IMG/VR virus record: IMGVR_UViG_3300044712_000499
Location: 1 to 64,000 of that record
Length of the DNA: 64,000 nt
Source of the DNA: a virus
Strand: one strand, 5' to 3'
Made by a program: the position numbers and the translations under genes
Shown: positions 12,097-39,382 of the stretch, piece by piece
Numbering within the stretch: the first letter of the stretch is position 1
Layout: each line of letters starts with the position of its first letter
Notes under the pieces: generated by a model
What the model was told of the DNA's origin: nothing
The model's input: only the letters and a program-made list of their open reading frames with translations
The model's database searches: none

Positions 12097-12129
12097 CTTA
12101 TTTCAGTAGTTGAGTGACTATAAACGTAG

Positions 12130-23030: not shown

Positions 23031-23368
23031 TAATCTTCTCCTAATAAATAAGTTTTCTCTGGCGTGGTTATAGAAACCCTTCTTTGTTTAAATTTAATCA
23101 TTAGCCTATCCGCTAGCTCCCACGCATCATAAATCAATCGTTGTTTTTCTTTGGGAAACCTTGCATAGCTAATAAACCCAACTATTGCGCCGTCTTCCCA
23201 TCCGTCTTTGTAAACAAACCTTGTGGGTGTTATGGTAACACAATTACCTGGGTATTGGCAATATCTATAACAGACATCATAAACCTCATTGATGTTGTGC
23301 CTAATATCAGAATATTCTTCTCTTAGTCCAATCCATATCTGTATGTTAAAAGAATCAACTGTTTTCAT
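23030..23368 (-). CDS. Protein of unknown function
   Basis: The 112-residue protein has a beta-rich start, YDVCYRYCQYPGNCVTITPTR in the middle and a charged helix (PKEKQRLIYDAWELADRLM). It overlaps the glycosyltransferase gene upstream by 4 bases and the PP-loop gene downstream by one, so all three are likely translated together. Family not recognised. Confidence 0.5.
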   Translation of the reverse strand: MKTVDSFNIQIWIGLREEYSDIRHNINEVYDVCYRYCQYPGNCVTITPTRFVYKDGWEDGAIVGFISYARFPKEKQRLIYDAWELADRLMIKFKQRRVSITTPEKTYLLGED

Positions 23369-24375
23369 CTTGTCTTAATTGGTAAATTGAACTGTTCGGA
23401 AAACCAAGACAGATCATGAGTGAATATCTGCTTATTTCTCGCTCGTATCTTAAGTACGTTAGCGTAGTTTTTCTTAATTAGAGTTCTTGCTTTGTTAAGG
23501 TTTAATTCAGGGTATAGGAAGTTAGATATTTTATTCCTTTGGTCGGCATCCATAACCATAGTTTCGAGTACCCACAATCTATTCCAGAACATCTTCAAGG
23601 GACTTCGTGGCCCCTTCTCGTACCTATTAACTCCCTCTCTGTTGAAGAAATGAGTTGCCTCTACATCTGGCATGAGATAGCATCCGCCACCTACCAGCCA
23701 ACTCTTTAAACTAAGATGAGGCTCAAGTGTACCCCATTGGATGTGCCCCTGCCACCTCACTTTAGGGTCAGTGTCAAAGCCACCAATGAACTGATAGTAT
23801 CTCTTTGATGTCCAATAAAAGGCTCCCATTAGACATGAGATAGGACTTATGTCGTCTGATACAACATCTGTCTTCCATCTGCCTTTGAATATATCAGCGT
23901 AGTTAGGCTTTTGACGGAGCTTAGAGAAAGGTGGAAGGTCGTCTTTGTCAACAGTTATAACTAGGTCTGCCCCGTAACGCTTATGAAAGTTACCATCTTT
24001 GTCGGGCTTATCTCCTATGCAGACTGCACAGCCTATTGAGTTAGGTCTCTCTGTTACTGCTTTTATTACTTTGGTATCCCATCCCTTTTGAGTGTAGATA
24101 TCGCATCCAAGTATGACTATAATTTCTCCTTTGGCGGCTTCCACCCCTCTATCCAGTGAGTAGCCGACACCACGAGAGATAGGATTCTGAATAACCCTTA
24201 CGACTGAATTATCAATCATTAACGGCCTAAACTTGCCATTATGACTGAAAGAACCGTCATTAACGATGATAATTTCAATATCCGAGTTATCCTCGGCAGT
24301 TGCTAGCAGGTTGTTTACGACGTTATGAACCTGCTCATCGTCATTTTTAAAAGGGATCACAACGCTAACGGTCAT
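23365..24375 (-). CDS. Glycosyltransferase family 2-like, GT-A fold
   Basis: The 336-residue protein starts TVSVVIPFKNDDEQVHNVV, a typical GT-A N-terminus, followed by IEIIIVNDGS and GEIIVILGCDIYT, which give the nucleotide-sugar and metal-binding residues. A later segment (WGTLEPHLSLKSWLVGGG) resembles the acceptor region of polypeptide GalNAc-transferase-like enzymes. It would transfer a sugar to a protein, lipid or glycan. It is one of two glycosyltransferases on this strand, away from the main cluster at 32.6-39.4 kb. Confidence 0.8.
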   Translation of the reverse strand: MTVSVVIPFKNDDEQVHNVVNNLLATAEDNSDIEIIIVNDGSFSHNGKFRPLMIDNSVVRVIQNPISRGVGYSLDRGVEAAKGEIIVILGCDIYTQKGWDTKVIKAVTERPNSIGCAVCIGDKPDKDGNFHKRYGADLVITVDKDDLPPFSKLRQKPNYADIFKGRWKTDVVSDDISPISCLMGAFYWTSKRYYQFIGGFDTDPKVRWQGHIQWGTLEPHLSLKSWLVGGGCYLMPDVEATHFFNREGVNRYEKGPRSPLKMFWNRLWVLETMVMDADQRNKISNFLYPELNLNKARTLIKKNYANVLKIRARNKQIFTHDLSWFSEQFNLPIKTR

Positions 24376-24535
24376 CTTCTGTAATATTGTAAGTTATACC
24401 ACACTCTGTACAAATAGCTTTAGCGTCTACATCAAACAACTCGGATACAAGATCAACCTTTCTATCTGTAAGAAATCCAAAAGTGTGTAAGTGCATTAGT
24501 GCTTCTGTGGCAACGTTTTCATTCATTTTACTCAT
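24365..24535 (-). CDS. Small protein with a CxxC motif
   Basis: The protein has 56 residues. It overlaps the GroES-like gene at its start and the glycosyltransferase gene at its end, so it fits the operon without a gap. The C-terminal half contains AICTECGITYN, a single zinc-knuckle-like pair. The function is unknown. Coupled overlaps at both ends support a real gene. Confidence 0.5.
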   Translation of the reverse strand: MSKMNENVATEALMHLHTFGFLTDRKVDLVSELFDVDAKAICTECGITYNITEDDR

Positions 24536-25319
24536 TGCTTTTCCTTTTGATTACCATGGCAATTTTTCTTCTAGGAATCAGAATATACAACTCATCTCCA
24601 TTGAACGTGGCAGAGTAACTCTTTCGCTCAAGCGGGAGGTGTACCGTATTTCTCTCAAGCAATACCTCATCTCCTGGTTGTAGGTCTTGGTGGTCTATGT
24701 AGGATTTAACTTTATATGATCTATTGCAGGTTCCAACATACCGGACTATAGCTCTTGTCTTGTCTATTTTGTCTTCGCTTGTAACGTCTAAGGCTGATAA
24801 CTTTGGGAGGTTTACTGTTTGACAGAGTACGTAGCCGTTAAGAGGGATGACTTTAATAACTTCCCTTAATCCACCCTCAAAGTTTCCTCCAAGTTTCCAC
24901 AGTTCGACTTCTTTTCTCTTTGCCACATAGCAGTCAGCATAAGGCAGTATCTTGTAGGTCTTGCCCTCGCAAAGGACTTCATGCGAATTTGCCGATTCTA
25001 TTAAAGAGAAAAAAACCACGTCTGATTCTTGTAGTTCCATATCGGTATCCCATTCCATAGAATTAGGATCATTCTCATTGTAGTAGAGCTTTGGTGGGCA
25101 CTTGTAAACTATACCCCATACCTCTTGAAGATTTGCGGGATGAGAGTCCGAACCTTCAGCGTAATTTACTGACCGATTAAACCCATATACGATTCCGCTT
25201 CTCGTTGTAGCACCATCGCTAGAGTACGTCATCTCTACAATCACTTGGTTGCACTTGTCGGTTAAGATACCTTCATCAAGTTGCTTTCTTGTCAGTTCTA
25301 TCTTTGGGTTTTCTATCAT
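24528..25319 (-). CDS. GroES-like co-chaperonin, probable tandem domains
   Basis: The 263-residue protein appears to contain two GroES-like units. The first has QVIVEMTYSSD, SGIVYGF and ESDVVFF; the second has GYVLCQTVNLP, RAIVRYVGTC, LQPGDEVLLER and a C-terminal ELYILIPRRKIAMV. GroES caps the GroEL folding chamber, and phage versions such as T4 gp31 are needed to fold the capsid protein. The length of two domains is unusual. A second, single-domain candidate is at 31504. The assignment rests on strand pattern and key turns, so it is moderate. Confidence 0.5.
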   Translation of the reverse strand: MIENPKIELTRKQLDEGILTDKCNQVIVEMTYSSDGATTRSGIVYGFNRSVNYAEGSDSHPANLQEVWGIVYKCPPKLYYNENDPNSMEWDTDMELQESDVVFFSLIESANSHEVLCEGKTYKILPYADCYVAKRKEVELWKLGGNFEGGLREVIKVIPLNGYVLCQTVNLPKLSALDVTSEDKIDKTRAIVRYVGTCNRSYKVKSYIDHQDLQPGDEVLLERNTVHLPLERKSYSATFNGDELYILIPRRKIAMVIKRKSNE

Positions 25320-25522
25320 AATTGTTCAAACATTAGCTTGTTATACTCTTCTTCATTAAGAGTTATACCCCTTATCTTTTTTCCGCAAGAGGGGCAGTAG
25401 TTAACATGGAATCCCCCTATGCAAGCCATGGTATATTTTTTAGTACCATCCTCTTCATAGAAATACCACTTAAATGTTGGGAGTATTTTCTTTATGGGCT
25501 CACAGCAAAATTCAGTTTCCAT
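25316..25522 (-). CDS. Zinc-ribbon protein
   Basis: The protein has 68 residues from METEFCCEPIKK. Cys residues near the start and a YCPSCGKKI pair near residue 52 suggest a zinc ribbon. A longer reading from 25558 would overlap the upstream gene by about 45 bases. The stop overlaps the GroES-like gene start by 4 bases. Confidence 0.5.
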   Translation of the reverse strand: METEFCCEPIKKILPTFKWYFYEEDGTKKYTMACIGGFHVNYCPSCGKKIRGITLNEEEYNKLMFEQL

Positions 25523-25769
25523 TTTTCTTATCTTTATTTTCAAACCATATTTCAACATCCGGTGTAACGCCTATTTCATGCTCAATTTCCCCATCGAACT
25601 CTATAAGTAGTCTATCTCTCTTAGTCTTATTAACGTAAGAAATAGATAATACCTTTAGCGGGGATGCCATACCTGCCCTAAAGAAATGATCACCAACTAT
25701 GTAGGTAGTACTGATTATATCTCCCGACACGGGGACTTTATTGAAGCGGATGCTCGTTATTTCTTTCAT
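25512..25769 (-). CDS. Small beta-rich protein
   Basis: The 85-residue protein has alternating hydrophobic strands (TSIRFNKVPVSGDIISTTYIVG) and a charged C-terminus. It contains an exact CTTTAGCGGG repeat at 25653-25662 in its coding region. Family not recognised. Confidence 0.5.
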   Translation of the reverse strand: MKEITSIRFNKVPVSGDIISTTYIVGDHFFRAGMASPLKVLSISYVNKTKRDRLLIEFDGEIEHEIGVTPDVEIWFENKDKKNGN

Positions 25770-25776
25770 TTACTAA

Positions 25777-25989
25777 TTAAAACATATTCCATGTTTTATC
25801 CATGTTTAAAATACCATCAGCTTTGAAATTATCATCTTGCAATTCAAGATTCCCGTTTTTATACATTTTATCCCTATTTATTTTAAGGACTTCAATAGCT
25901 TTTTCTTTTGCTTCTTCTTCTGACTCAGATTTAACATGGATACAAATAATTGCTTTATAGCCAAATGTTACTTGATAATTTGTTTTCAT
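25777..25989 (-). CDS. Small protein of unknown function
   Basis: The 70-residue protein has a strand-helix layout: a beta segment (YQVTFGYKAIICIHV), an acidic-basic helix (SESEEEAKEKAIEVLK) and a short C-terminal beta segment. The start overlaps the stop of the glycosyltransferase gene by 4 bases. Confidence 0.5.
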   Translation of the reverse strand: MKTNYQVTFGYKAIICIHVKSESEEEAKEKAIEVLKINRDKMYKNGNLELQDDNFKADGILNMDKTWNMF

Positions 25990-26687
25990 TTCATTATTTG
26001 ATTTAGTATTTCTCTTTCCTCAGTACTTAAAATTTCGTATAGCTTTTGCGGGTCTTCCCTCTCCTTGATCTTCTTACACCAAAAGTCAACACGATTCAGG
26101 TTTTGCTTGCTCTTAATATCGAATACTACTGCATCATCCACAATCTTACTCGTCTGCACATGTGGTTTGATAGCTAAAGTAACAAGCCCGTCAAGCCCCC
26201 AGTTCTTATCTTTAGTCCATGGTCGCCAGTCAACCTTGTCAAGCACGCTAGAGCTTATAGTCTTGCACACTCCTAGCATACTCTTTCCTGTGAATTTAAC
26301 CATGTCTCCTTTGTATATCCCTGCCGTGCCAAAGAAATAGATGTTCTGTACTCCTACTAAGTCATAGCCTTTCTGTACTTCTGTATTTATTCTTTGGTAG
26401 GTTTCTGTACTCATAACATTGTCGGAACCCAAAATCATGCAATAGTCTACTTTTATTGACCTCATATAAGCCATGGCACGGTTGTATTTCTCTGAAACGG
26501 GGTAGTTCTCCTGTTCTATGTGTACTATATGCCCGTTTTCACATATCCCTTTGTCCTCTGAGCCACTTACTACCACTGCGGGTATGTATGTCTCGGTTTC
26601 ACGTCTTAAACGGTTCACAGACTCCACCCACAAGCTCAAAATGAGAGGTCTATTATGGTTAGCGCAAATAAGTCCCAATGTTTTCAT
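25986..26687 (-). CDS. Glycosyltransferase-like protein
   Basis: The 233-residue protein begins MKTLGLICANHNRPLI; this ATG overlaps the stop of the upstream membrane gene (TAATG), which decides the start over one 19 codons earlier. The segments YIPAVVVSGSED, DYCMILGSDNV and WGLDGLVTLAI follow the GT-A pattern, with SDN in the place of the metal-binding DxD. The acceptor is unknown. It belongs to the same operon as the GroES-like and other small genes. Confidence 0.65.
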   Translation of the reverse strand: MKTLGLICANHNRPLILSLWVESVNRLRRETETYIPAVVVSGSEDKGICENGHIVHIEQENYPVSEKYNRAMAYMRSIKVDYCMILGSDNVMSTETYQRINTEVQKGYDLVGVQNIYFFGTAGIYKGDMVKFTGKSMLGVCKTISSSVLDKVDWRPWTKDKNWGLDGLVTLAIKPHVQTSKIVDDAVVFDIKSKQNLNRVDFWCKKIKEREDPQKLYEILSTEEREILNQIMK

Positions 26688-26848
26688 TATCCTTTTGGTA
26701 TAAAGAAAGTCCACGTCTTTGCCTGTGGATGCTCGGCTCTCCAAAACTTATATTTAATAAAGCCAACTCCGAAAACCAAAGAAGCAATGGCAAGAACTAG
26801 TCCTACCACAAGCATATTATACTTTAATTTTTGAAAAAACTTTTTCAT
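26687..26848 (-). CDS. Small single-pass membrane protein
   Basis: The 53-residue protein has a basic N-terminus (MKKFFQKLKYN), one transmembrane segment (residues about 12-30) and a polar C-terminal region ending TWTFFIPKG. Its stop overlaps the glycosyltransferase start. A TATCTTTG box and an AAACAAGAGA leader lie upstream. It could anchor or partner the glycosyltransferase. Confidence 0.55.
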   Translation of the reverse strand: MKKFFQKLKYNMLVVGLVLAIASLVFGVGFIKYKFWRAEHPQAKTWTFFIPKG

Positions 26849-26891
26849 CGCCCGTTAAAGATTAAATTATTACTTATTCTCTTGTTTCTTG

Positions 26892-26899
26892 CAAAGATA
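26892..26899 (-). promoter_or_regulatory. Promoter -7 box for the glycosyltransferase-GroES operon
   Basis: TATCTTTG on the minus strand is followed by GAAACAAGAGA and the membrane-protein ATG 44 bases downstream. Confidence 0.6.
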
Positions 26900-26929
26900 G
26901 TATAGATTAATTAGAAATACAAATTTATT

Positions 26930-27712
26930 TTAACCTTTGGTGGTTTCAAGTAATTCAAATTGTTCTATAACTTTAAATATCTGTAACGCAACGCCTGGTA
27001 CTATCGCATTGCCATAAGCCTTTATAGATTCTCTTCTCCATTCTGAAACGGTAATTCCGTCCATTGCGGTGGAAACCCCATCATTGTTGCTAACAACGTC
27101 GGATTCGGATATACGGTACGCTTCTTGAAACCTATTCTGTAGTTCAGAAAATGTTTTAATTGACTTTTCCACCTTTCTCTGTTTAGTGCAGACTTTGGTG
27201 TGCTCCCTTTCCAATCGCTTGTTGTTGGAGTAGGCAATAAACCATACCCTATCTCTGCTATGGGGGGCATCAACGGCACAAGCTGGAAGTATAATCGGTT
27301 GTACGACGTACCCTTGAAGTTCCAGGTCAGTACACACCTGCTCGAATACCAATCCCCCGTTCCAATTAACAATTCCATAAACATTTTCTCCCACAACCCA
27401 AACCGGTTCAATCTGCTTAATAACTTCAAGCATTCGAGGCCAGAGATGGCGGTTATCATTCGTGCCCTCTCTTTTTCCCGTTTGGCTAAAGGGTTGGCAT
27501 GGAAACCCTCCGGTAAGTATGTCAATTCTTCCTCGGTGAATAGAGAAGTCTGTTTTTGTGATGTCTCCATAACTTATTGCATTAGGCCAGTAATATTTTA
27601 AAACTTTTCGTCCAAATTCATTCCATTCACAATGAAACACATTATTCCATCCCATCCATTGAGCAGCCATATCAAATCCGCCAATCCCGCTAAAGAGTGA
27701 ACCATGTCTCAT
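26930..27712 (-). CDS. dcm: DNA (cytosine-5) methyltransferase
   Basis: The 260-residue protein has the C5-methyltransferase motifs in order: SLFSGIGGFD for S-adenosylmethionine binding (residues 5-14), GGFPCQPFS with catalytic Cys72, GENVYGI with the ENV motif near 109-111, HSRDRVWFIAY, and a C-terminal ESIKAYGNAIVP. It is short, with a small target-recognition region, but looks complete. Phages use such enzymes to protect DNA from restriction. A second conserved-looking gene lies inside it in another frame. A long structured leader precedes it. Confidence 0.9.
   Translation of the reverse strand: MRHGSLFSGIGGFDMAAQWMGWNNVFHCEWNEFGRKVLKYYWPNAISYGDITKTDFSIHRGRIDILTGGFPCQPFSQTGKREGTNDNRHLWPRMLEVIKQIEPVWVVGENVYGIVNWNGGLVFEQVCTDLELQGYVVQPIILPACAVDAPHSRDRVWFIAYSNNKRLEREHTKVCTKQRKVEKSIKTFSELQNRFQEAYRISESDVVSNNDGVSTAMDGITVSEWRRESIKAYGNAIVPGVALQIFKVIEQFELLETTKG
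27022..27570 (-). CDS. Overlapping gene nested within the cytosine methyltransferase
   Basis: The 182-residue frame lies wholly inside the methyltransferase gene on the same strand, in a different frame. It is unlikely to be a shadow. It starts METSQKQTSLFTEEELTYLP, contains YGLLPTPTTSDWKGS and ends LLATMMGFPPQWTELPF. I recall proteins with LPTPT.SD and MGFP..WT.LP that accompany cytosine methyltransferases in Bacteroidota and phages. It may shape target recognition or be a partner protein. A database search would settle whether the frame is conserved. Confidence 0.55.
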   Translation of the reverse strand: METSQKQTSLFTEEELTYLPEGFHANPLAKREKERARMITAISGLECLKLLSRLNRFGLWEKMFMELLIGTGDWYSSRCVLTWNFKGTSYNRLYFQLVPLMPPIAEIGYGLLPTPTTSDWKGSTPKSALNRERWKSQLKHFLNYRIGFKKRTVYPNPTLLATMMGFPPQWTELPFQNGEENL

Positions 27713-27789
27713 ACCTCCAAAAGTAAATCAAATTAATTAAATATCCAAATCTTTAGTAGGTTTTGTTTTAAACTTTAGCGGGTTTGCTC

Positions 27790-28266
27790 ATAAAAGAGCA
27801 TAGTATGGGCTTTTGTTTTGCATTTGGTTTCTCTCAATTTTGAATCTTTTAACTCTCATCCGAGAACCAAAGAAGAATCTGCTATTGTTTCGCTCAACTC
27901 TGGGTGGTAGGCATAGTCCCCCTTACCCCCACAGCCTTTATGCCATGGAAGTAGCCTACCACCCGTCGTCTCGCTTACAACCCTTCATCTTGTAATATCC
28001 TTCATACTACCGAAAACAAAAACCCGACCTCTACTGGCTCGATTGTTAATGTTTTTGATACCGTAACAATTATGGTATCCCGCTTATGTGGTGGCTTGGC
28101 GGGCTCATCGCCACCTAAAGATTATATGAGTTATGGGAAATGAAAAAGAGGGAGGACTTTATTTGCACATGATGTAAGACTGCGATTCGATGACCGCTTA
28201 CCTCCCTCTATTTGAAATACAAATTTACTCAAATTAATCATCATGTGCAAATATTTTGACTTAATT
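27790..28266 (-). ncRNA. Long structured leader upstream of the methyltransferase
   Basis: A minus-strand transcript from the TATCTTTG box at 28272-28279 would run about 550 bases to the methyltransferase start. It contains an 11-bp perfect stem (27902-27912 with 27954-27964), a GATACC/GGTATC hairpin (28057-28079), a GGTGGC/GCCACC hairpin (28090-28115), and two interleaved repeats: an 8-bp pair (28148-28155 with 28201-28208) and a 14-bp pair (28161-28174 with 28239-28252). Repeats in this order form a pseudoknot or exclude one another. The family is unknown. A regulatory leader or separate RNA is inferred. No convincing gene is seen in this stretch. Confidence 0.55.
28148..28252. repeat. Interleaved inverted repeats (8 bp and 14 bp)
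   Basis: GAGGGAGG (28148-28155) pairs with CCTCCCTC (28201-28208), and ATTTGCACATGATG (28161-28174) pairs with CATCATGTGCAAAT (28239-28252). One arm of each lies inside the other. On the minus strand the 8-bp stem is followed by TTTTTC, so it could act as a terminator blocked by the longer stem. Confidence 0.7.
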
Positions 28267-28271
28267 CTCCG

Positions 28272-28279
28272 CAAAGATA
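28272..28279 (-). promoter_or_regulatory. Promoter -7 box for the methyltransferase leader
   Basis: TATCTTTG on the minus strand diverges from the plus-strand promoter at 28315-28345, about 60 bases away. Confidence 0.55.
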
Positions 28280-28314
28280 ATACTTTTTTTGAATATAAAA
28301 AATCCGCCAAAGAC

Positions 28315-28345
28315 TTGCACGATAATTTTATTATAATTATCTTTG
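28315..28345 (+). promoter_or_regulatory. Promoter for the plus-strand RNA island
   Basis: TTGC at 28315 is followed after 20 bases by TATCTTTG at 28338-28345. This is one of the best Bacteroidota-type promoters in the window. Confidence 0.75.
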
Positions 28346-28364
28346 TATTGAATACAACAATATG

Positions 28365-28435
28365 CCCCTCGGTTGAAACGGGGTTAATTACTAACCGATT
28401 TTTTGCTGATTACAAGGATGAAGTTTACCGAGGGG
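28365..28435 (+). ncRNA. Hairpin leader before the 86-residue gene
   Basis: CCCCTCGGT (28365-28373) pairs perfectly with ACCGAGGGG (28427-28435), enclosing a GGTTA/TAACC hairpin (28382-28396). The structure starts about 20 bases after the promoter and ends 29 bases before the ATG of the next gene, as expected of a cis-acting leader. The family is unknown. Confidence 0.5.
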
Positions 28436-28464
28436 TTCTTTGAAAGTTATTAACTCTATATATT

Positions 28465-28725
28465 ATGTGGATTACTTTACCGGTTCTTTGGGCAGACGAT
28501 GATTGGGAAAGGAAAGAAGACCTTGGGCAGGACGTGGAATACCACGAAGACGACCTGAGTATAAATGTCAATAGTATCACTGCCTATCATAAAGATGATG
28601 AGGGAACCTTAATGCTCAGACTTAATAATGGTGACGTTTTTAGATCAAGGATTAAGTTTGAGTCCTTTGTTGCCCTTCTTAATGATTGTAATGTACAGGT
28701 AGAGTTAAAGTACACAGATAACTAA
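28465..28725 (+). CDS. Small acidic protein in the RNA island
   Basis: The 86-residue protein begins with MWITLPVLWADDDWER. It has a long acidic stretch (EYHEDDLSINVNSITAYHKD) and then LRLNNGDVFRSRIKFESFV, a pattern like small regulatory proteins that present an NG turn. No family is recognised. It is the only clear coding gene in a plus-strand unit that otherwise carries structured RNA, so the protein and RNAs may act together. Confidence 0.5.
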   Translation: MWITLPVLWADDDWERKEDLGQDVEYHEDDLSINVNSITAYHKDDEGTLMLRLNNGDVFRSRIKFESFVALLNDCNVQVELKYTDN

Positions 28726-28741
28726 GTTCTTTTTTTCTTTT

Positions 28742-28957
28742 GCAGTAGTGTGTGCCGATGGGTCGGCAAAGGGGAACACTCTGGGTAACACGGTGAGTTA
28801 AGCGATTAGTAACCGTATCTTCAATAATTCATAGACCCTCTTCTCGTTGTGTGTGATATAGTCCGCTACGACTATGACTTAGAGAAGTAATTTCCGAGAC
28901 TGCTACAGGATATGCAGCACAGCAATGTGGTACGGAATCACGCAAATGCAAGCAATT
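28742..28957 (+). ncRNA. Structured non-coding RNA with terminator
   Basis: At least four nested hairpins are visible in order. They are AGTGT/ACACT enclosing GCCGA/TCGGC (28747-28780); ACGGT/ACCGT (28790-28816); CTTCTC/GAGAAG enclosing ATAGTC/GACTAT (28840-28887); and TTCCG/CGGAA enclosing CTGC/GCAG (28892-28937). A strong terminator follows at once. There is no open frame across it. It matches no RNA family I can name: it lacks tRNA, tmRNA and RNase P signatures. It is probably transcribed from the promoter at 28315, with the small gene upstream. Confidence 0.65.
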
Positions 28958-28992
28958 AAAAAGGCTACTCTTTCGGGTAGCCTTTCTTTTTA
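28958..28992 (+). terminator. Strong intrinsic terminator after the structured RNA
   Basis: AAAGGCTAC and GTAGCCTTT form a 9-bp stem (28960-28985) with a TTTCGG-containing loop, followed by a T-rich tract. It separates the plus-strand RNA from the convergent exonuclease gene, whose stop codon overlaps the T tract. Confidence 0.85.
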
Positions 28993-29904
28993 TCTAGCTG
29001 TTGGCATCATTATTCCTGATTTACACTTTAGTGGGGTATCCACCTTACGACTACGGCAGATAGCACCACAGTCTTTGCACCTAAAGGCTAAGTACCTATT
29101 AACAGATGTAGAGTAGTGACCGCACTCATCAATATTAGTTGAACCGCAAGTAGGACAAGATGGTTCTATTGACTCCTGGTAGATAGCCATGTTAGGATGA
29201 GACTTTATATAAGGTCTTAGGAATACGTATGCTTCTTCTTCAAGTAGTACGTCCTTCTTATTGTAGGTTAGCATCTCCTGTAATCTTTCCGGTACTCCCT
29301 GCATACAATCAAGCCATAGTTGATATTCTGTATGAATCTTTCTGTCGTGCAATAGAAGTTCGCTTATGTAGTCTAGTTTGTTGGACGCAAACCTGAAGTT
29401 CTGTTGTGCTATTGTAAGTGTATCTATGGTGCGGTATGGTGATGGTGGTGCAAGTTTATTAACAATGAAGCGAGTCTGCGCCTTAGGGATATCAAATCGG
29501 TTTATGTTGTGACCTATAACTACATCGCATTGATCTAAAAACTTCCACAGTTCTCTTGCTATGCGTGAGTCATCTCTATTTACAGCCTCTTCGGGAGTGA
29601 CAACAGACCCATAGACCTTAGAATCAAATAACCACTTCCATGAGTAGGATAACATGAACCAATCATTGATTACCTGCTCATAACCTATCCTTTGCTTCCA
29701 TGTACCCCATACGTTAACCTGCATAGGGCTAGTCTCGATATCTAAGATACCTACTTTAGGTTGTTTTGTTTCCCAAAATCTTTTCTTTCTTTCGTAGCGT
29801 CTGAGTGTTTCGGCTGTAATGCCAAAGTGTTGGAGTGTTTCTGTTTCGCCATTTTCATTTAAGAAGGCAAGTACTTTTTCTAGATATTCTATGCTTACAG
29901 CCAT
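28990..29904 (-). CDS. DnaQ-like 3'-5' exonuclease with C-terminal zinc ribbon
   Basis: The 304-residue protein has an N-terminal helical region (residues 1-45) and then an exonuclease core. VGILDIETSP gives the first two acidic residues, VIGHNINRFDIPKAQTRF the second motif, and YNKKDVLLEEE the third. The C-terminal 70 residues carry CPTCGS and CKDCGAICRS, a zinc ribbon. DnaQ-fold nucleases proofread or trim DNA and RNA. No polymerase domain is present. It follows the small gene at 29904 with a one-base overlap. Confidence 0.75.
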   Translation of the reverse strand: MAVSIEYLEKVLAFLNENGETETLQHFGITAETLRRYERKKRFWETKQPKVGILDIETSPMQVNVWGTWKQRIGYEQVINDWFMLSYSWKWLFDSKVYGSVVTPEEAVNRDDSRIARELWKFLDQCDVVIGHNINRFDIPKAQTRFIVNKLAPPSPYRTIDTLTIAQQNFRFASNKLDYISELLLHDRKIHTEYQLWLDCMQGVPERLQEMLTYNKKDVLLEEEAYVFLRPYIKSHPNMAIYQESIEPSCPTCGSTNIDECGHYSTSVNRYLAFRCKDCGAICRSRKVDTPLKCKSGIMMPTAR

Positions 29905-30209
29905 TATTTATTTTTTTGGTTAGTAGATTTAATCTTTAGCGGGTGTATGAGATCGTCTATGACGGTTAACTCTTTCTTCCAGTCATCTTCAAAATGGCTT
30001 GTACGCCTATCCCTAAACAGTTTTTCGTCACTCATTCTACGAGAGTAACCTTTTGTATAGGCTACAGAGTAAACGCCCTCTAAAGTGTTATTTACTATCT
30101 CTGTTGTGGGGTTCGTTTTAACTATCCTATCAGCTACAGCTACAAGGTAGTCCTTTGGCAGGGTATGAGGTCTCTTGACCTTTCCTTTTGACTTCTTCTT
30201 TTTCGACAT
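29904..30209 (-). CDS. Basic protein of unknown function
   Basis: The 101-residue protein is very basic at the N-terminus (MSKKKKSKGKVKRPHTLPKD) and helical after that, ending in a lysine-rich tail. The basic ends suggest nucleic-acid binding. An AAATCAAGAGAT leader precedes the start. An exact dispersed repeat lies inside at 29934-29943. Confidence 0.5.
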   Translation of the reverse strand: MSKKKKSKGKVKRPHTLPKDYLVAVADRIVKTNPTTEIVNNTLEGVYSVAYTKGYSRRMSDEKLFRDRRTSHFEDDWKKELTVIDDLIHPLKIKSTNQKNK

Positions 30210-31883: not shown

Positions 31884-31976
31884 ATGACAACAAATCAATT
31901 CTATGATGACAATAAGGAGTGGATACTGCTCTTTGGTGTTTTGGTGGTAGCTACTTTGATAATGTGGTTTGCATGA
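31884..31976 (+). CDS. Short single-pass membrane peptide (30 aa)
   Basis: The peptide (MTTNQFYDDNKEWILLFGVL and onward) has a polar N-terminus and one hydrophobic segment of about 18 residues ending FA. Its stop overlaps the start of the radical-SAM gene (ATGA). A good promoter and leader directly in front support translation. It may be a membrane anchor or only a coupling leader for the next gene. Confidence 0.5.
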   Translation: MTTNQFYDDNKEWILLFGVLVVATLIMWFA

Positions 31977-32635
31977 TACGAGAATCAAAAGGTAATATGT
32001 ATTCTTGGGTTACGCACACATGGAATACTGTTAAGGGAGAATGCCCACATGGTTGTACTTATTGCTATATGAAGCGATGGGGTACACAGACTCCTGTCAG
32101 ATTTGATTATGATGAACTAAAGACAGACCTAGGATCGGGCAATATTATCTTTGTCGGCTCTAGTTGCGATTTATTTGCAGAAGCTATCCCTAGTGAATGG
32201 ATTCACAACACACTACAACACTGTAATATTTACGATTCAAATGAGTATTTATTTCAAAGTAAGAACCCCAAAGGATTTGCTTATATAAGGCAACACCAGA
32301 TACCAAAATACAGACTTTGCACTACAATAGAAACAAATAGGGTTTATCCTAAAGAGATGCAACTATCGCCATCCCCTATGGAAAGAGCACTTGCATTATC
32401 TAAGTATGTTTTGGATTATCGGTATGTGACCATTGAGCCTATTATGGACTTCGATATTGATGAGTTGGTAACGCTGATTGAAATGATTGCGCCCGATCAA
32501 GTAAATATAGGAGCAGACAGTGGCAACAACGACTTACCCGAACCGTCTAAAGATAAAGTTATATCTCTTATAGAAGAACTATCTAGGTTTACTACCATAG
32601 ATAGAAAGACTAACTTAGCAAGGCTTTTAAAATGA
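31973..32635 (+). CDS. Radical-SAM-type protein, phage Gp37/Gp68 (DUF5131) family
   Basis: The 220-residue protein begins MIRESKGNMYSWVTHTWN; this start overlaps the upstream stop and replaces one 18 codons earlier. CPHGCTYCYMKRW is a Cx3Cx2C cluster for an Fe-S centre. FVGSSCDLFAEAIPSEWI and YLFQSKNPKGF are features I associate with the Gp37/Gp68 family found in phages. Radical-SAM enzymes start radical reactions on varied substrates. The substrate of this family is not established. It opens the glycan-modification operon. Confidence 0.75.
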   Translation: MIRESKGNMYSWVTHTWNTVKGECPHGCTYCYMKRWGTQTPVRFDYDELKTDLGSGNIIFVGSSCDLFAEAIPSEWIHNTLQHCNIYDSNEYLFQSKNPKGFAYIRQHQIPKYRLCTTIETNRVYPKEMQLSPSPMERALALSKYVLDYRYVTIEPIMDFDIDELVTLIEMIAPDQVNIGADSGNNDLPEPSKDKVISLIEELSRFTTIDRKTNLARLLK

Positions 32636-33216
32636 TAACCTACCTTATCAATAGAGAAGATCGCCCCCAAAGGCTTGCTCATGCTAGAGAACAACTACAA
32701 GCACAGAACTTAAATGCTCATGTGTTTAAGGCTATAGTGGGTTCTCCTGGTTGGAAGGGCTGTCGAGATTCCCACGTAAGTCTCATGGAGAGATGCCGTA
32801 ACGAAGAGACGTTCCAAATCCTTGAAGACGATGTACTTTTCTTAGGCGACTACCATTCTGCTGTTGAAAATGCAATGTGGGAACTGCCTAATGAATGGGA
32901 TGCTTTGTTTCTTGGGGCATCACCGCAAGAGCCTTTTGAACGCTACTCTGAACATCTATTTAAGATGGGAAAAGCCTTTACAACACATGCGATCATCTGG
33001 CATACACGTTATAAGGGCGCAGTAGAGTTCATCCTATCCAATAAGAAGGACATACATAAAATTGATGTTTTCTTTAACGATTTTATTTACTCTAACTTTA
33101 ATTGCTACTGTATCTATCCATTATTGTGTATTCAATCTGGCTCTTTTTCTTCAGACACATGTAAGGTAAGCGATGTGTCAACTATATCAAAAAATTATAA
33201 TTTATTTTGTATATGA
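32632..33216 (+). CDS. Glycosyltransferase family 25-like
   Basis: The 194-residue protein begins YLINREDRPQRLAHAREQL, as in LPS-type GT25 galactosyltransferases, and then has FQILEDDVLFLGDYH, in which EDD is the metal-binding motif. A FTTHAIIWHTRYKGAVEFI segment matches the acceptor half. Its start overlaps the radical-SAM stop (ATGATAA). The C-terminus ends at the insertion of the GIY-YIG gene; its last residues NLFCI may differ from the original end. Confidence 0.75.
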   Translation: MITYLINREDRPQRLAHAREQLQAQNLNAHVFKAIVGSPGWKGCRDSHVSLMERCRNEETFQILEDDVLFLGDYHSAVENAMWELPNEWDALFLGASPQEPFERYSEHLFKMGKAFTTHAIIWHTRYKGAVEFILSNKKDIHKIDVFFNDFIYSNFNCYCIYPLLCIQSGSFSSDTCKVSDVSTISKNYNLFCI

Positions 33217-34304
33217 TAGGGGATAGAAATTACGGAGAAAGTGGCGTATATATAATACAATCAAAGACAAAACCAAACAGGGTATACGTTGGTAGTGCGG
33301 TAGCTGTTGAAAGAAGAAGGTGGGAGCATACAACTGCATTAAGGAAGGGCAAGCATCACTCTCATAAATTACAAAATCATTTTAATAAATACGGAGAGAA
33401 TGATTTAATTTTTGATGTTATAGAGAGCGGTGATTATATAGACAAAAATCACTTACTTTCAAGGGAGCAAGGTTGGTTTTATCATTTTGATGACAAAAAA
33501 ACAGGCAAGCCATATTTCAATGAGTGCGCATTAGCAGGCAGTGTTTTGGGTATTAAACAATCTGAGGAGACAAAGAAGAAGAAGTCTCTTGCCATAAAAG
33601 GTCGTAAAAGAAGGGCAAAAACGCAGATGGAAAAAGATCATCAATCAGATATGTTAAAAGGGAAACCTCTTTCTGATGTGCATAAAGCAAAACTAAAAGG
33701 ACATAAGCATAGCGAAGAAACAAAGGCTGTACTTAGAGAGAAACTTAAGGGAAATAAAAATGGAGTTGGTAATAAATCTAGCAAGGGAAAACCATCCCTA
33801 AAAAAGGGTAAAAAACTTCCTTCTCATAGTCCGCAAACAATTTTAAATCAATCTATTGGAATGAAGAAATGGTGGGATAACCATCCAATGGAGAAAAATA
33901 AAAGGAGCGATATGTTTTCAGGGGAAAAAAATCCGTTTTATGGGAAAAAGCACAAACCAGAGTCTATCATGAAAGGTGTAAGTAAAAATAAGGGTAGGAA
34001 GGCATCCTCTGAAACCAAGGAAAAACAAAGTATTTCTTTAAAAAAAGCGTGGGCAGAAGGGAGGAATAGAGGTTCTTTTGGTATTCATACGCCAATGCCA
34101 CTAACAACTAGAAATGCACTTAAGACAGCGAATGAAATACCTATCTTACAATTTAACGATAAGAATATATTTATAAAGGAATGGGGGTCAATTAAGAATG
34201 CGTGTATGTGTCTTGGAATATCTTATGCTACAATAATTAAAAGTATTAAACTCGGTATTATTGTTAAGAATAATTTTGCATTTCAATATAAACCCGATGC
34301 GTAA
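33213..34304 (+). CDS. GIY-YIG homing endonuclease with NUMOD3 repeats
   Basis: The 363-residue protein begins MIGDRNYGESGVYIIQSKTK. GVYII and VYVGSAV are the GIY and YIG halves, RWEHTTALRKGKHHS adds the conserved Arg and His, and SREQGWF supplies the Glu. Residues 110-270 contain repeated (H/K)SEETK, PLSDVHKAKLKG and similar units of NUMOD3 DNA-binding type. It has more lysine and is more AT-rich than its neighbours, typical of a mobile gene. TTGTATATGA occurs at both of its borders (33207 and 34326). Confidence 0.85.
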   Translation: MIGDRNYGESGVYIIQSKTKPNRVYVGSAVAVERRRWEHTTALRKGKHHSHKLQNHFNKYGENDLIFDVIESGDYIDKNHLLSREQGWFYHFDDKKTGKPYFNECALAGSVLGIKQSEETKKKKSLAIKGRKRRAKTQMEKDHQSDMLKGKPLSDVHKAKLKGHKHSEETKAVLREKLKGNKNGVGNKSSKGKPSLKKGKKLPSHSPQTILNQSIGMKKWWDNHPMEKNKRSDMFSGEKNPFYGKKHKPESIMKGVSKNKGRKASSETKEKQSISLKKAWAEGRNRGSFGIHTPMPLTTRNALKTANEIPILQFNDKNIFIKEWGSIKNACMCLGISYATIIKSIKLGIIVKNNFAFQYKPDA

Positions 34305-34331
34305 TAATATTAATTTTAATAAATATTGTAT

Positions 34332-35546
34332 ATGAAGATAAATAAATGCCCTATAACAGATGCCGATAATGGGGTTAAGTATCTTGACCTTGGGGATATT
34401 CCTTTAGTAAACAATCTTTGTAGTACAAGAGAAAGTTCTTTAGCGTGCAAGAGATATCCTTTATCGGTTCAGCTATTCCAAGGATCGGGATTATCATGCC
34501 TCACAGAGCTTATCCCTAAAGAAGAACTATTTAGCCACTACCTATATAAATCAGGAGTTAGTAAACCATATATTAGCCACTGTTCTCAGATGTATGATTA
34601 CCTAGATAAGTATGTTAATCTTGAATATGGAGGTATAGTAGTTGACATAGGCGGGAATGACGGTAGTTTGCTCAATGAGTTTAAGAAAAAGAATGGTACA
34701 CTAACCCTTATTAATGTTGACCCGTGCATAGAGTTTGCTGATGAGAACATGAGAGAGGGTATTTCATATCATAACGCTTTCTTTGGAGAGGAGGTTGTAC
34801 TTCCAGCCAAAGCCACTCTTATCATATCTACCAATGTCTTTCAGCATAATTGGGATATAAGATCATTTGTTAAGGGGGTACATGAAAATCTTGATACTAA
34901 TGGCATTTGGTGTTTAGAGTTCCCATATTGGCTTACTACTATCTTAACCGACAACTACGATCAAGTATATCACGAGCATGTGTATTACTACATTTTAAGT
35001 AGTCTGCTTACGTTATTTAAGCAAGAAGGGCTTAAGGTGATTAATGTATCTTACCACCCGATTCACGCAGGAACGCTAAGGGTCATAAGTGCTAAGGAAG
35101 AAAGCAGTCTTGTTGCGGACAGTAGCATTGATTCGTTTCTTAATCTTGAGCAACTTATGACAGAGAGCTTTTATATTAAGTGGGGTAACTCTATTCAAAC
35201 TAAGATTAGCGAGTGTGAGGATTTTATCAAAGGATTTGTGCATGTTTACAATGCTAGAATATTCGGTTTTGGTGCTGCCGCCAAGGGCTGTATATTTCTA
35301 AATACCTGCCATCTTACTGACACAGACATGCCGTTTGTCATTGATGACACGCCAGAGAAACAAGGCATGTTTATTCCTGGCACGGGTATTGAGATAGTAA
35401 GTAGGGATATCTTGAAGAAATGGCATCCAAATTACATTTTGATACTTGCCCATAACTTCAAGGATTATATTATCAAGTCGTTAAGAAACGATGGCTATAT
35501 AGGCGGATTTATTATAATGTTTCCAGAAATAGAAGTAATAGACTAA
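34332..35546 (+). CDS. Sugar C-methyltransferase-like SAM enzyme
   Basis: The 404-residue protein begins MKINKCPITDADNGVKYLDL. It has the three-part layout of NDP-hexose C-methyltransferases: an N-terminal Cys-containing domain, a Rossmann core (VVDIGGNDGSLLNEFKK for SAM binding, TLINVDPC, LIISTNVFQH) and a C-terminal domain with a second Rossmann-like motif (FGFGAAAKGCIFL). Family members alkylate deoxysugars used in antibiotics and surface polysaccharides. A phage copy suggests that it makes or alters an unusual sugar. The N-terminal zinc site looks reduced. Confidence 0.75.
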   Translation: MKINKCPITDADNGVKYLDLGDIPLVNNLCSTRESSLACKRYPLSVQLFQGSGLSCLTELIPKEELFSHYLYKSGVSKPYISHCSQMYDYLDKYVNLEYGGIVVDIGGNDGSLLNEFKKKNGTLTLINVDPCIEFADENMREGISYHNAFFGEEVVLPAKATLIISTNVFQHNWDIRSFVKGVHENLDTNGIWCLEFPYWLTTILTDNYDQVYHEHVYYYILSSLLTLFKQEGLKVINVSYHPIHAGTLRVISAKEESSLVADSSIDSFLNLEQLMTESFYIKWGNSIQTKISECEDFIKGFVHVYNARIFGFGAAAKGCIFLNTCHLTDTDMPFVIDDTPEKQGMFIPGTGIEIVSRDILKKWHPNYILILAHNFKDYIIKSLRNDGYIGGFIIMFPEIEVID

Positions 35547-35547
35547 T

Positions 35548-36090
35548 ATGCAAGAATTATCTCTTTTAGACTTAAACACAAGAGGCGTTGCAGGACTCTC
35601 TTTCTCAGATAAGGGAACACTTCATAGCTATCTGCCTTATTATGATGTATTGTTTAGCCCTTTCCGATATAGGTCTATAAACATCTTTGAAGTGGGCTAT
35701 CAGCACGGAGGTAGTTGTATGTTATTTAGCCTTTACTTTTCCGATGCTAAGATACTCGCTATTGATACCGATGGGTGTGTGCCTTTACCAGAGTCGGGGC
35801 GAATACTTGTTGATGTTCTTGATATCGCAGGTCTTACTCCGGCTTACTTTGATAATTTCATTCCCGACATAGCCATAGATGATGGTTCTCATACAATAGA
35901 AGATCAGATAAGGTTTATTCGTCTTGTTTATCCCGTTTTAAGAGAAGGTGGTATGCTTATCGTTGAGGATATTCAGAATATTGATAAACAAAAGGAAATA
36001 TTTGATCTTCTTAATATTCCATATACCATCTATGACTTAAGACACATCAAGGGAAGATATGACGATGTTTTTTTAGTTTTTAATAAATAA
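35548..36090 (+). CDS. Class I SAM methyltransferase-like
   Basis: The 180-residue protein has FEVGYQHGGSCMLFSLYF for the SAM loop, ILAIDTDG for the acidic ribose contact, PDIAIDDGSHTIEDQIRF and LREGGMLIVEDIQNID. This pattern occurs in small O-methyltransferases of polysaccharide and natural-product clusters. It lies one base after the C-methyltransferase stop, which suggests that it methylates the same glycan. Confidence 0.75.
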   Translation: MQELSLLDLNTRGVAGLSFSDKGTLHSYLPYYDVLFSPFRYRSINIFEVGYQHGGSCMLFSLYFSDAKILAIDTDGCVPLPESGRILVDVLDIAGLTPAYFDNFIPDIAIDDGSHTIEDQIRFIRLVYPVLREGGMLIVEDIQNIDKQKEIFDLLNIPYTIYDLRHIKGRYDDVFLVFNK

Positions 36091-36093
36091 TCC

Positions 36094-36855
36094 ATGAATA
36101 AGATAGTTATTGCCTATCACGCCTACTTATATGGCAATCGCTATATGGAGATGGTAGTTGATCAGCTAAGAAAAATTAGTAGTGCTATTTGGCATGAAGA
36201 TACTCAGTCATTGGAGGTAAACTTATTTCCACTGTGTCACAAAATGTACATTGGTATTGTTGATACTCCCACAAAGAAGCCTAGTCATGGAGTCGAATGG
36301 CTAACTAATTGGTTTAATACTAAGTCAAGTAAACTTGATTGCGATGTTATATGCCCTAAACTTGAAGTGGTTGTTTATCCAAAGAATGAAGAGTTAAGGG
36401 GAACATTAAGATGGATACGTGACTATGCAAAAGAGAATCCAGATGATTATATTCTATTTTTTCACACCAAGGGGATAACTCATCTGACTGAAGCTACCGA
36501 GGACTGGCGTAAGTATATGGAGTATTTTGTTCTTAAAAGATGGAAGGATTGTGTGCAGAAGTTAGATGAGGGGTACGACTGTTGCGGTGTTTTATGGAAT
36601 ACGGACACACCAATAGGAATCTGGCCTCATTTCTCCGGTGCATTCTTTTGGGCAAAGGCTAGTTATATAAATACACTTGATCATAGTTATTTGGAATCAA
36701 AGTGGCGATACATGATGGAGTTTTGGATAGGGAGTAATCCTAATGCCAAGGTTTATGAGTTTCATAATTCTGGATTTAACTCAAAAGAAAGACTACTAGC
36801 AAGACAAGGACATTATAATATTCCATATCCCCCTAAAGAATATGAGATAAAATGA
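36094..36855 (+). CDS. Glycan-modification protein, rhamnan-synthesis-like
   Basis: The 253-residue protein has KIVIAYHAYLYGNRYMEMVV at the start, YILFFHTKGITHLTEATEDW in the middle and HFSGAFFWAKASYI near residue 190. The FFHTKGI pattern occurs in glycosyltransferase-related proteins near surface-polysaccharide genes. Its stop overlaps the next glycosyltransferase start. The exact reaction is uncertain. Confidence 0.55.
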   Translation: MNKIVIAYHAYLYGNRYMEMVVDQLRKISSAIWHEDTQSLEVNLFPLCHKMYIGIVDTPTKKPSHGVEWLTNWFNTKSSKLDCDVICPKLEVVVYPKNEELRGTLRWIRDYAKENPDDYILFFHTKGITHLTEATEDWRKYMEYFVLKRWKDCVQKLDEGYDCCGVLWNTDTPIGIWPHFSGAFFWAKASYINTLDHSYLESKWRYMMEFWIGSNPNAKVYEFHNSGFNSKERLLARQGHYNIPYPPKEYEIK

Positions 36856-37439
36856 GTACGCTTCACGTAATATGTACAGCATTCAATCGTCCTATTCAAC
36901 TTAGGATGATGATAGACTCTTTCCTCTTACAAACAGACGGAAGGTGGAAATTGACTGTTATACATGACGGGCAAGCATCACAAGAGATTCATGATATTAT
37001 TGGATGGTATAACGATAACCGGATAACATTCTTTGAGACGGATATTGTTGGCGGTAGTTATGGTCATCCTAATAGAAAGTATATGTTAAATCAGATACAG
37101 GGAGACAAGGATGACTTTGTATTAATAACGAATGAAGATAATTATTACGTTCCCGCTTTTGTAGAATACTTTCTTGGGGCATGTACGCCTCGTGTGGGCA
37201 TGGTTTATTGTAACACTATTCATTCTTATCTTAAATACAATATTCTAGTAACTAAGGTTAAGGAGAATTATATAGACATGGGGTCTTTTATTGTAAGATT
37301 AGCAGTAGCAAAGGCAACTGGTTTTAATCATGCACACCTCTCGGCAGATGGTAAATATGCAGAAGAGTGTTTTCAAACGTGCCGTAAGCGAGGGTTGATG
37401 CCCGTGTGTATTAATAAACCTCTTTTTGTTCATAATTGA
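36852..37439 (+). CDS. Glycosyltransferase family 2-like
   Basis: The 195-residue protein starts LHVICTAFNRPIQLRMMIDS, the usual GT2 N-terminus, and has WKLTVIHDGQ and FVLITNEDNYY, with EDN in the metal-binding place. It is short, containing mainly the nucleotide-sugar half. It overlaps the upstream gene by 4 bases. Confidence 0.75.
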   Translation: MSTLHVICTAFNRPIQLRMMIDSFLLQTDGRWKLTVIHDGQASQEIHDIIGWYNDNRITFFETDIVGGSYGHPNRKYMLNQIQGDKDDFVLITNEDNYYVPAFVEYFLGACTPRVGMVYCNTIHSYLKYNILVTKVKENYIDMGSFIVRLAVAKATGFNHAHLSADGKYAEECFQTCRKRGLMPVCINKPLFVHN

Positions 37440-37444
37440 AAGAC

Positions 37445-38131
37445 ATGAAAAATTTACTAATAACAACAATAGGAAAGTATAATCATTTCTCTGCGTGGAT
37501 TGATGGAGAAAGAGATTATGACATAGCCGTAGTTATTTATGATGACTCAGTTCAGCCAAAGGTAAGTGACAACACTTGCTTGGTCGTTGAACGCTTTAAG
37601 ACTTTCAAGTACGAGGGTATTAAAAGATTATTTGACTTGCACCCCACGTTATCTGACTACGACTACTTTTGGATGCCGGATGAGGATATATGGGCTAAAC
37701 CTGAAGATATAAACAGAATCTTTACTCTGACAAAGGAAAGAGAACTTTGGTTGTCGCAACCAAGCATACTAGATACCCACGACAGCTTTCCTTCATGGAA
37801 GTGTTTTGCCCATAGACCCGACGTAGAACTTGTTCATACTAACTTTATAGAGGTTATGTGTCCGTGTGTTTCACGCAAGGCAATGAAGAAGATTTACCCC
37901 CTGCTTAATAAGTCTAAGTCGGGATGGGGGCTAGACCTCATTTGGAGTTGGCTTGGAGTTGACGAGAAGATGGGCATACTGAACTCTGTACCCGTTAAGC
38001 ACACACGTCCCGTTGGTGGAGGAACGCTTTACTCTGAGTTAGCCGCCAAGGGTATCTATCCATCAAGAGAAAGAAAGAAGTTAATGAAAGAGTTCGGCAT
38101 TCCAAGTATTGACATAAAAACATGGATATAG
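37445..38131 (+). CDS. Glycosyltransferase-like protein (DUF707-like)
   Basis: The 228-residue protein begins MKNLLITTIGKYNHFSAW. It has YDYFWMPDEDIWAKPED for a DxD-type site, a later CPCVSRKAMKKIY, and GWGLDLIWSWLG, features I associate with DUF707 proteins. The alternative TTG start at 37436 would overlap the upstream stop. It is placed in the glycan operon and ends 9 bases into the next gene. Confidence 0.6.
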   Translation: MKNLLITTIGKYNHFSAWIDGERDYDIAVVIYDDSVQPKVSDNTCLVVERFKTFKYEGIKRLFDLHPTLSDYDYFWMPDEDIWAKPEDINRIFTLTKERELWLSQPSILDTHDSFPSWKCFAHRPDVELVHTNFIEVMCPCVSRKAMKKIYPLLNKSKSGWGLDLIWSWLGVDEKMGILNSVPVKHTRPVGGGTLYSELAAKGIYPSRERKKLMKEFGIPSIDIKTWI

Positions 38132-38808
38132 TCTTTCTTATAACCACTTACAATAGAAGGGAATCCTGCCAAAGACTTGTTGACTCTCTACAAGGACTAG
38201 GAGATATAGTCGTTCTAGGAGATCATGTGGACTACACCATTAGTGGGTGTAGCTTTACAAACCTACCGGAGCACTATGGAAGATCAGGTTATTGGTTTAC
38301 TGTTAAGCGTCTCTTTGCCATGAGGGGTAAGCATAAATACTTCATGATGCTTCCTGATGATTTCATGATGTGTGAAACGCAAGTTATGGAAGCTATAAAG
38401 TTATGGGAGGGTATTAACGATCCGCAAAAGATATGCCTAAACCTATACATGGACAGATTAGGTCTTAAGTGTTGGACTAATTTTTATCCTACATCATTGG
38501 GTAATGTTTGGCAGACAGGATGGGTAGATATGTGTTTCCTTTGCGAGGAATCCTTCTTTTGTAATTTCAAACTTAGGCAGAAGATATCCCATACTAGTAG
38601 TGGAGTGGGCGCACAGATAAGCAGACAGTTGTTTCACAGGAAGTTTCATTTATACCAGGTTAAGGAGAGTCTTGTAACGCCCCAAAGTGAACATTCTATA
38701 TCCCAAATGCACAATGAACAAAACAGTAACGGTGGGAATCGCCAGTCTCAAAGAGAGAGAAAAGTCTATGATACTCGTCGTAGAGGCAGTAAAAGATCAA
38801 TGCGATAA
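38122..38808 (+). CDS. Glycosyltransferase-like protein
   Basis: The 228-residue protein starts DIVFLITTYNRRESCQRLVD and has YFMMLPDDFMM as a DxD-type site. The first 195 residues look genuine. The last 30 (GGNRQSQRERKVYDTRRRGS and after) are low-complexity and overlap the next gene by 95 bases, so they may come from a small frameshift or from lost coding constraint. The pair could once have been one fused enzyme. Confidence 0.65.
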   Translation: MDIVFLITTYNRRESCQRLVDSLQGLGDIVVLGDHVDYTISGCSFTNLPEHYGRSGYWFTVKRLFAMRGKHKYFMMLPDDFMMCETQVMEAIKLWEGINDPQKICLNLYMDRLGLKCWTNFYPTSLGNVWQTGWVDMCFLCEESFFCNFKLRQKISHTSSGVGAQISRQLFHRKFHLYQVKESLVTPQSEHSISQMHNEQNSNGGNRQSQRERKVYDTRRRGSKRSMR

Positions 38809-39382
38809 GGTAGTAGTAGGACTTAATAACTATACGAGGGTTCCCGAAGCACTATCTTGCTATTCCAATGTGGAATGTCATCTGCTCGATAATTCTTTGG
38901 GAGATGCGGCAAAGATGCTCACAGTTGGTTCATGTGACGGTTACTATGCCACCTTGGACGACGATCTATTGCCCCCAAAGACCTTCATTCAAGATTTGAT
39001 TAGAGGCATAGACCGGTATAATGGATTCATATCTTTTCATGGTAAGGTGTACAATAGGGGGTTCAGTGGGTTTAAAAAACCGTCTATCGTCTATCGTTGT
39101 CTTGGTTCTGTGGCTGATGACGTCCGTGTCAACTTCATAGGTACGGGATGTTCGGGTTTTCACACAGACCGCCTAAAGCTATCAATAGATATGTTCCCTA
39201 TAAAAAATATGGCTGACGTACACGTTTCTAAGGCATGTCATGACCAAGGGGTACAAATGGTCGTCCTTAAGCATGATCGTGGCTATTTCGCCTATCAGCA
39301 ACCTTCAGGAGGGACAATTTGGGAGTCGTTTAGAGGAGCAACCCCCGTACAGGATAAAATAATGAGAACTTTTCTTAAATAA
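38714..39382 (+). CDS. Glycosyltransferase family 2-like
   Basis: The 222-residue protein begins MNKTVTVGIASLKEREKSM. CDKVVVGLNNYT and YYATLDDDLLPPKTFI follow the GT-A pattern, with DDD as the metal site, and a later VNFIGTGCSGF and YFAYQQPSGG complete a small transferase. An upstream in-frame codon at 38687 is possible but lengthens the overlap. This is the last gene of the glycan operon. Confidence 0.7.
   Translation: MNKTVTVGIASLKEREKSMILVVEAVKDQCDKVVVGLNNYTRVPEALSCYSNVECHLLDNSLGDAAKMLTVGSCDGYYATLDDDLLPPKTFIQDLIRGIDRYNGFISFHGKVYNRGFSGFKKPSIVYRCLGSVADDVRVNFIGTGCSGFHTDRLKLSIDMFPIKNMADVHVSKACHDQGVQMVVLKHDRGYFAYQQPSGGTIWESFRGATPVQDKIMRTFLK

Follow-up and report, generated by a model that had tools for sequence, protein, structure and literature searches.

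A phage of Bacteroidota encodes what is probably a genuine small structured non-coding RNA, here called RNA2, which we read as the final RNA of an operon for stable RNAs, one in which the phage makes use of the rRNA antitermination system of its host. The most economical account is that RNA2 represents a new small non-coding RNA family with no Rfam entry. Structural alignment finds a secondary structure common to the RNA2s of four phages, scoring far above shuffled controls. Four members are known; that the unit is transcribed, that antitermination acts on it, and that RNA2 is stable and has a molecular function are all inferred.

The window (the whole stretch of DNA analysed, 64,000 nt) comprises positions 1-64000 of an 82,580-base IMG/VR virus record. 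Its source is a tailed phage of Bacteroidota, since its genes for terminase, portal and capsid have counterparts among the PHROG families for head and packaging, the exonuclease adjoining the RNA2 region is closest to exonucleases of Bacteroides and Cellulophaga phages, and the promoters are of the Bacteroidota TTTG/TAnnTTTG type.

The transcription unit and its relatives

RNA2 lies in a plus-strand island flanked by minus-strand genes (23365-27712 and 28990-30209), as a preliminary description of this DNA had recognized. The unit consists of RNA1, a boxA-like site, an 86-aa open reading frame (ORF) and RNA2 (Table 1). That description had not noted the boxA-like signals, the homologous operons, the conserved small ORF or the tRNA found in the unit of relatives.

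Table 1. Features of the RNA2 unit and the adjoining exonuclease gene, in window positions
Feature	Position	Strand	Description
Promoter, Bacteroidota type	28314-28345	+	CTTG at 28314-28317, 20-nt spacer, TATCTTTG at 28338-28345
RNA1, predicted leader RNA	28352-28435	+	9-bp outer stem (28365-28373 / 28427-28435), directly before boxA
boxA-like element GTTCTTTGA	28435-28443	+	Identical to the element upstream of 16S rRNA in Bacteroidota
86-aa ORF	28465-28725	+	Small beta-rich protein, resemblance to FlbD-type 'flagellar and swarming motility' protein
Second boxA core AGTTCTTT	28725-28732	+	At stop codon of the ORF; invariant in four phages
RNA2, probable structured non-coding RNA	28733-28955	+	Structural alignment of four homologs; no Rfam match
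P1, 5' strand	28739-28744 and 28748-28752	+	Opens the long-range closing stem
P2	28754-28767	+	5-bp hairpin GCCGA-TGGG-TCGGC with tetraloop
P3 domain	28783-28838	+	GGGT/ACCC and GTGAGTTA/TAATTCAT; conserved in outline only
P1, 3' strand	28939-28943 and 28947-28952	+	Closes RNA2 shortly before the terminator
Intrinsic terminator	28960-28992	+	11-bp stem 28960-28985 (one G-U), loop TTTC, T tract to 28992
Exonuclease gene	28990-29904	-	Convergent to the RNA2 unit; ends at 28990

The promoter is of the TTTG/TAnnTTTG class rather than sigma-70, and transcription would start at about 28352. It is kept in three of three relatives as TA[TA]CTTTG with TTTG 19-20 nt upstream (L003, L002 and L084). The earlier assignment to RNA2 of its own promoter at 28315 is thus plausible as to the element, which is conserved; the promoter would, however, drive the whole unit and not RNA2 alone, lying about 390 nt from it, and none was found between the 86-aa ORF and RNA2. 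At the other end the terminator is the sole strong one of intrinsic type in the region. It is as strong as had been claimed and has the T tract, although its stem comprises 11 pairs rather than 9; with an A tract preceding the stem, it can work in either direction. Between the end of the ORF (28725) and the terminator no gene-like plus-strand ORF occurs, in agreement with the preliminary description. The description thus holds in outline, but a more natural start for the RNA than 28742 is the second boxA core, with the closing stem following from 28739.

Three relatives were located, L002 and L003 by exonuclease search and L071 by terminase; their exonucleases are 79%, 71% and 46% identical, respectively, to that of the window, and the L071 contig carries exonuclease and small ORF together. 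The order in the relatives is promoter, RNA1, boxA-like site, tRNA-CAU, small ORF, AGTTCTTT, non-coding stretch and terminator, and in all four phages the whole unit is convergent to the exonuclease gene. The tRNA with anticodon CAU, between boxA and ORF, is present in three of the four phages and missing from the window. Further scans with the exonuclease, the small ORF, the terminase and the RNA1 pattern returned the same three relatives only, and exonuclease search of genome contigs gave no match. GC-rich pattern matches in L350, L351 and L353 were rejected as chance matches in coding DNA, and the operon is absent beside the exonuclease relatives of crAss-like phages (L004/L005 and L008/L009). 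In one relative, L003, a Twister-sister ribozyme match was found at 12088-12154 (+), 44.7 bits and above gathering. In L071 a promoter at 5516 (+) stands immediately before AGTTCTTTGAA, followed by a 584-aa protein that Pfam does not match and by 18 tRNAs in an array; a TROVE/Ro assignment for the protein at L071:5747-7501 was dropped, the Pfam match being absent.

Orthologs of the 86-aa protein occur in all three relatives at 29-34% identity. Nothing above the cut-off was found for it in Pfam and nothing significant in a PDB fold search. Its AlphaFold model (pLDDT 75) gave weak viral Foldseek matches (best E 5e-4), from which its predicted fold resembles that of FlbD.

By the strongest rival to a distinct RNA, RNA2 would be no more than the 3' untranslated region of the mRNA for the small ORF, or else an sRNA derived from that mRNA by processing, with the closing stem and terminator protecting the message and the shared structure reflecting mRNA stability. 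RNA2 does start at the stop codon of the ORF and end at the terminator of the ORF's unit; it has no promoter of its own that we could find, and none of the phages found has the small ORF without RNA2 or RNA2 without the small ORF. A multi-branched domain of 220 nt with its own conserved boxA core nevertheless far exceeds a stabilizing hairpin, and three relatives have a tRNA in the unit, as stable-RNA operons do. We consider this rival unlikely, while giving it more weight than any other.

Two further regions of the window were noted. On the minus strand, about 500 nt of non-coding DNA (27760-28265) separate a divergent promoter element, ATTATCTTTG at 28281-28272, from a DNA methylase gene. 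This stretch, read from 28265 to 27760, has a folding energy of -147 kcal/mol (z -4.7), equalled by none of 100 shuffles, which is stronger folding-energy support than RNA2 has, and contains perfect inverted repeats of 15 and 11 bp. Searches of Rfam, INPHARED and PLSDB gave nothing for it, and BLAST against the related phages gave short weak fragments only; it may be a second, larger structured non-coding RNA. At 31919-39382 runs a series of plus-strand genes, the first for a radical-SAM/DUF5131-like protein and the rest, judged from translations, including glycosyltransferase-like, SAM methyltransferase-like and GIY-YIG-like homing endonuclease (33207-34304) products. It is possibly a glycan or DNA-modification cassette.

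Shared structure of RNA2

The RNA2 sequence alone cannot show a structured RNA, because its folding energy is ordinary once the terminator is removed (z -0.15). With the terminator, 28742-28992 has a minimum free energy of -72.6 kcal/mol (z -1.73), and 13 of 200 shuffles were equally good. The fold given in the preliminary description is therefore not above chance by energy; what upholds its claim of a structured non-coding RNA is structural conservation in the three relatives.

RNA2 diverges in sequence and length (about 160-230 nt) across the four phages, and MAFFT aligns the four poorly, apart from columns 1-8, the second boxA core, which are invariant. We rely on a purpose-written Sankoff-type structural alignment with dinucleotide shuffles as controls, a method that favours shared pairs by construction. 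In five of the six pairs of RNA2s no shuffle of 100 reached the observed score, and in the sixth 2 of 100 did. With the sequence terms off, z ranged from 2.0 to 3.9; across the pairwise comparisons with and without these terms, 0-2 of 60 or 100 shuffles reached the score. The joint structure-only score over six pairs was 547.6, whereas 20 shuffled sets gave 401.8 +/- 29.9 and at most 459 (z 4.9). The joint score is higher for the sense than for the antisense strand. The preliminary description had held that a lack of structural conservation in relatives would count against the RNA; the four RNA2s share structure.

The shared core comprises P1, P2 and a third hairpin domain, while the 3' half is less alike and has no clear common structure. 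The order along RNA2 is boxA core, P1 5' strand, body and P1 3' strand. P1 is a long-range stem split into two segments that together have about 12 bp. Its pairs were aligned in all of three pairwise comparisons with bases changed on both sides, and P2 follows P1 by 0-1 nt in all four phages. Nearly all P1 and P2 pairs differ between phages yet still pair, in a sample of four members with an alignment fitted to structure.

These results bear on two rivals. By one, only the terminator matters, 28733-28955 being unconstrained spacer and the shared fold an artefact of an alignment that rewards shared pairs; the ordinary energy z-scores would fit. Shuffled sets, however, never attained the joint score, the strand difference favours sense, and P2 and the boxA core stand at the same place in four of four phages, so we judge it improbable. 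By the other, RNA2 would regulate in trans, or would act as a decoy that occupies a defence system or an RNA-binding protein of the host. Rapid change of sequence with retained shape is compatible with an arms race, but we found neither a target nor an antisense stretch nor any known decoy motif, and we rate it marginally lower still. Of the roles that the preliminary description had offered (regulatory RNA, defence decoy or scaffold RNA), none stands out, and nothing observed speaks for a decoy or for antisense action.

Promoter and boxA in hosts and other phages

In a scan of bacterial genomes, at least 120 stretches, nearly all from Bacteroidota, had GTTCTTTGA at a distance of 50-110 nt upstream of the start of 16S rRNA; the consensus of the boxA in these stretches is aaaGTTCTTTGAaatATTGa. 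Just upstream of boxA the host rRNA leaders have a stable hairpin (mean -4.4 kcal/mol, versus -2.3 when shuffled), a position like that occupied by RNA1. The phage unit has two features of an rrn-type leader, with the boxA of the host lineage downstream of a promoter and a hairpin (stem 28365-28435) upstream of it. The outer stem of RNA1 has homologous CCCGCC/GGCGGG stems in L084, L003 and L002; structural alignment of RNA1 was clearly above shuffles in only three of six pairs. The 82.6-kb contig has nine copies of GTTCTTTGA, so single matches to it carry little weight. The first boxA, after RNA1, has one change in two of the four phages (GTTCTTCGA and GTTCTTTTA); the second core, before RNA2, is conserved in all four.

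Viral contigs were scanned for TAnnTTTG with AAAGTTCTTTGAAAT 3-33 nt beyond it, and RNA genes downstream were confirmed with Rfam. The combination was found in 69 viral contig stretches, where a rough estimate gives about one expected. Among 43 intergenic cases 25 lead on the same strand into GOLLD (19) or tRNA/tmRNA (6), whereas none of 26 controls inside ORFs leads into GOLLD, tRNA or tmRNA (Fisher p 1.5e-7). The conserved GOLLD domain starts 420-830 nt after boxA, mostly at about 485. Promoter and AAAGTTCTTTGAAAT precede GOLLD in L011, L012, L028, L060, L219, L225, L241, L253, L255 and others, and promoter and boxA stand directly before tRNA arrays or tmRNA in L230, L232, L245, L254, L260 and L268. 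In five intergenic cases (L210, L227, L233, L242 and L261) the signal is directly followed by neither a known RNA nor a gene and may mark further non-coding RNAs. The main cryo-EM paper on GOLLD makes no mention of boxA or antitermination (PMC12286853), and a literature search, which missed most subscription papers, found no report linking either to GOLLD.

RNA2 itself matched no known RNA. Rfam 15 gave no family at gathering over the whole window, ROOL, tmRNA, RNase P, 6S and group I intron included, nor a meaningful match at E<=10 in 28200-29100, and RNA1 and RNA2 of the relatives had no Rfam match. The preliminary description, which had proposed an Rfam search, saw no tRNA, tmRNA or RNase P hallmarks; ARAGORN and Rfam concur, with no tRNA or tmRNA at RNA2 or anywhere in the 82.6-kb contig (ARAGORN; RF00005/RF00023). 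Weak Rfam matches to Phe_leader, sca_ncR20 and ARRPOF were rejected as terminator or chance matches far below the cut-offs. A group I intron, suggested by a P7-like GATATAGTCC motif, was dropped for want of an RF00028 match, as was a permuted tmRNA, an RF04321 match being absent. Nucleotide search of INPHARED gave only terminator-sized or promoter-sized scraps. That RNA2 is a shortened or diverged ornate RNA of the GOLLD/ROOL type is very improbable: the setting of phage, boxA leader and tRNA in the unit is shared (PMC12286853), but neither ROOL nor the covariance model of the GOLLD (RF02032) 3' domain gave a match, whether in the window or in the relatives, with E relaxed to 1-10, and RNA2 measures about 160-230 nt against 600-800.

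Proposed mechanism and known systems

Assembly of the rRNA antitermination complex in E. coli requires boxA and needs nothing more than boxA, and closely downstream of it comes the leader strand of the rrn leader-trailer helix (boxC) (PMC10250234). By analogy, NusB/S10 would use the boxA sequence in Bacteroidota too. Host RNA polymerase would start at the promoter (28338), and the nascent leader would present the RNA1 hairpin and then boxA GTTCTTTGA, as in host rRNA leaders. The boxA would recruit NusB-S10 and other antitermination factors, as in E. coli rrn, and Rho would thus be prevented from stopping polymerase on a poorly translated, folded transcript. Polymerase would then read the tRNA (in the relatives), the small ORF and RNA2, as far as the terminator. 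The second boxA core and closing stem, which resemble the 16S boxA and leader-trailer helix, could aid co-transcriptional folding of RNA2, which once released would most likely be a stable free RNA or RNP; the 86-aa protein encoded alongside may be its partner. A translated ORF inside the unit counts against a stable-RNA operon.

More generally, and tentatively, with confidence a little short of even, we propose that Bacteroidota phages put stable-RNA genes (GOLLD, tRNA arrays, tmRNA and RNA2) into rRNA-like units with the hairpin-boxA leader of host rrn, RNA2 copying from pre-rRNA the combination of boxA and leader-trailer helix. These phages would then rely on host rRNA antitermination as the general route to large untranslated RNAs, giving a testable rule for phage transcription of long untranslated RNAs such as GOLLD, and a promoter followed by an rrn-type boxA would be a signal for finding more phage non-coding RNAs. 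RNA2, keeping its shape while its sequence changes freely, is of a size that suits rapid structural and genetic study.

The pRNA of phage phi29 is a small structural RNA whose two ends pair in a closing stem. RNA2 is likewise small and stem-closed, but shows no evident homology and no link to the packaging genes, the terminase lying 10 kb off on the other strand. GOLLD (RF02032) is also a phage non-coding RNA near tRNAs, and its transcript in Bacteroidota phages starts with promoter and AAAGTTCTTTGAAAT; unlike RNA2, which does not match it, GOLLD is about 800 nt long with a conserved 416-nt 3' domain. Lambda nut and HK022 put are cis-acting leader RNAs of phages, with a boxA-type element (nut) or a structured leader (put). 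The RNA2 unit resembles them in having a phage leader RNA that is structured or beside a boxA-type element, but no phage N-like protein was seen, and the signal, which corresponds to the rrn box of the host, serves RNA genes rather than a whole early operon. A bacterial rRNA operon differs from this phage-encoded unit in that the latter yields an RNA of about 215 nt and a small ORF, with no rRNA, and its antitermination is putative. The unit nevertheless shares with rRNA operons the hairpin and then GTTCTTTGA downstream of a Bacteroidota promoter, a second boxA core, a long-range stem enclosing the product right after boxA, and a tRNA in the unit.
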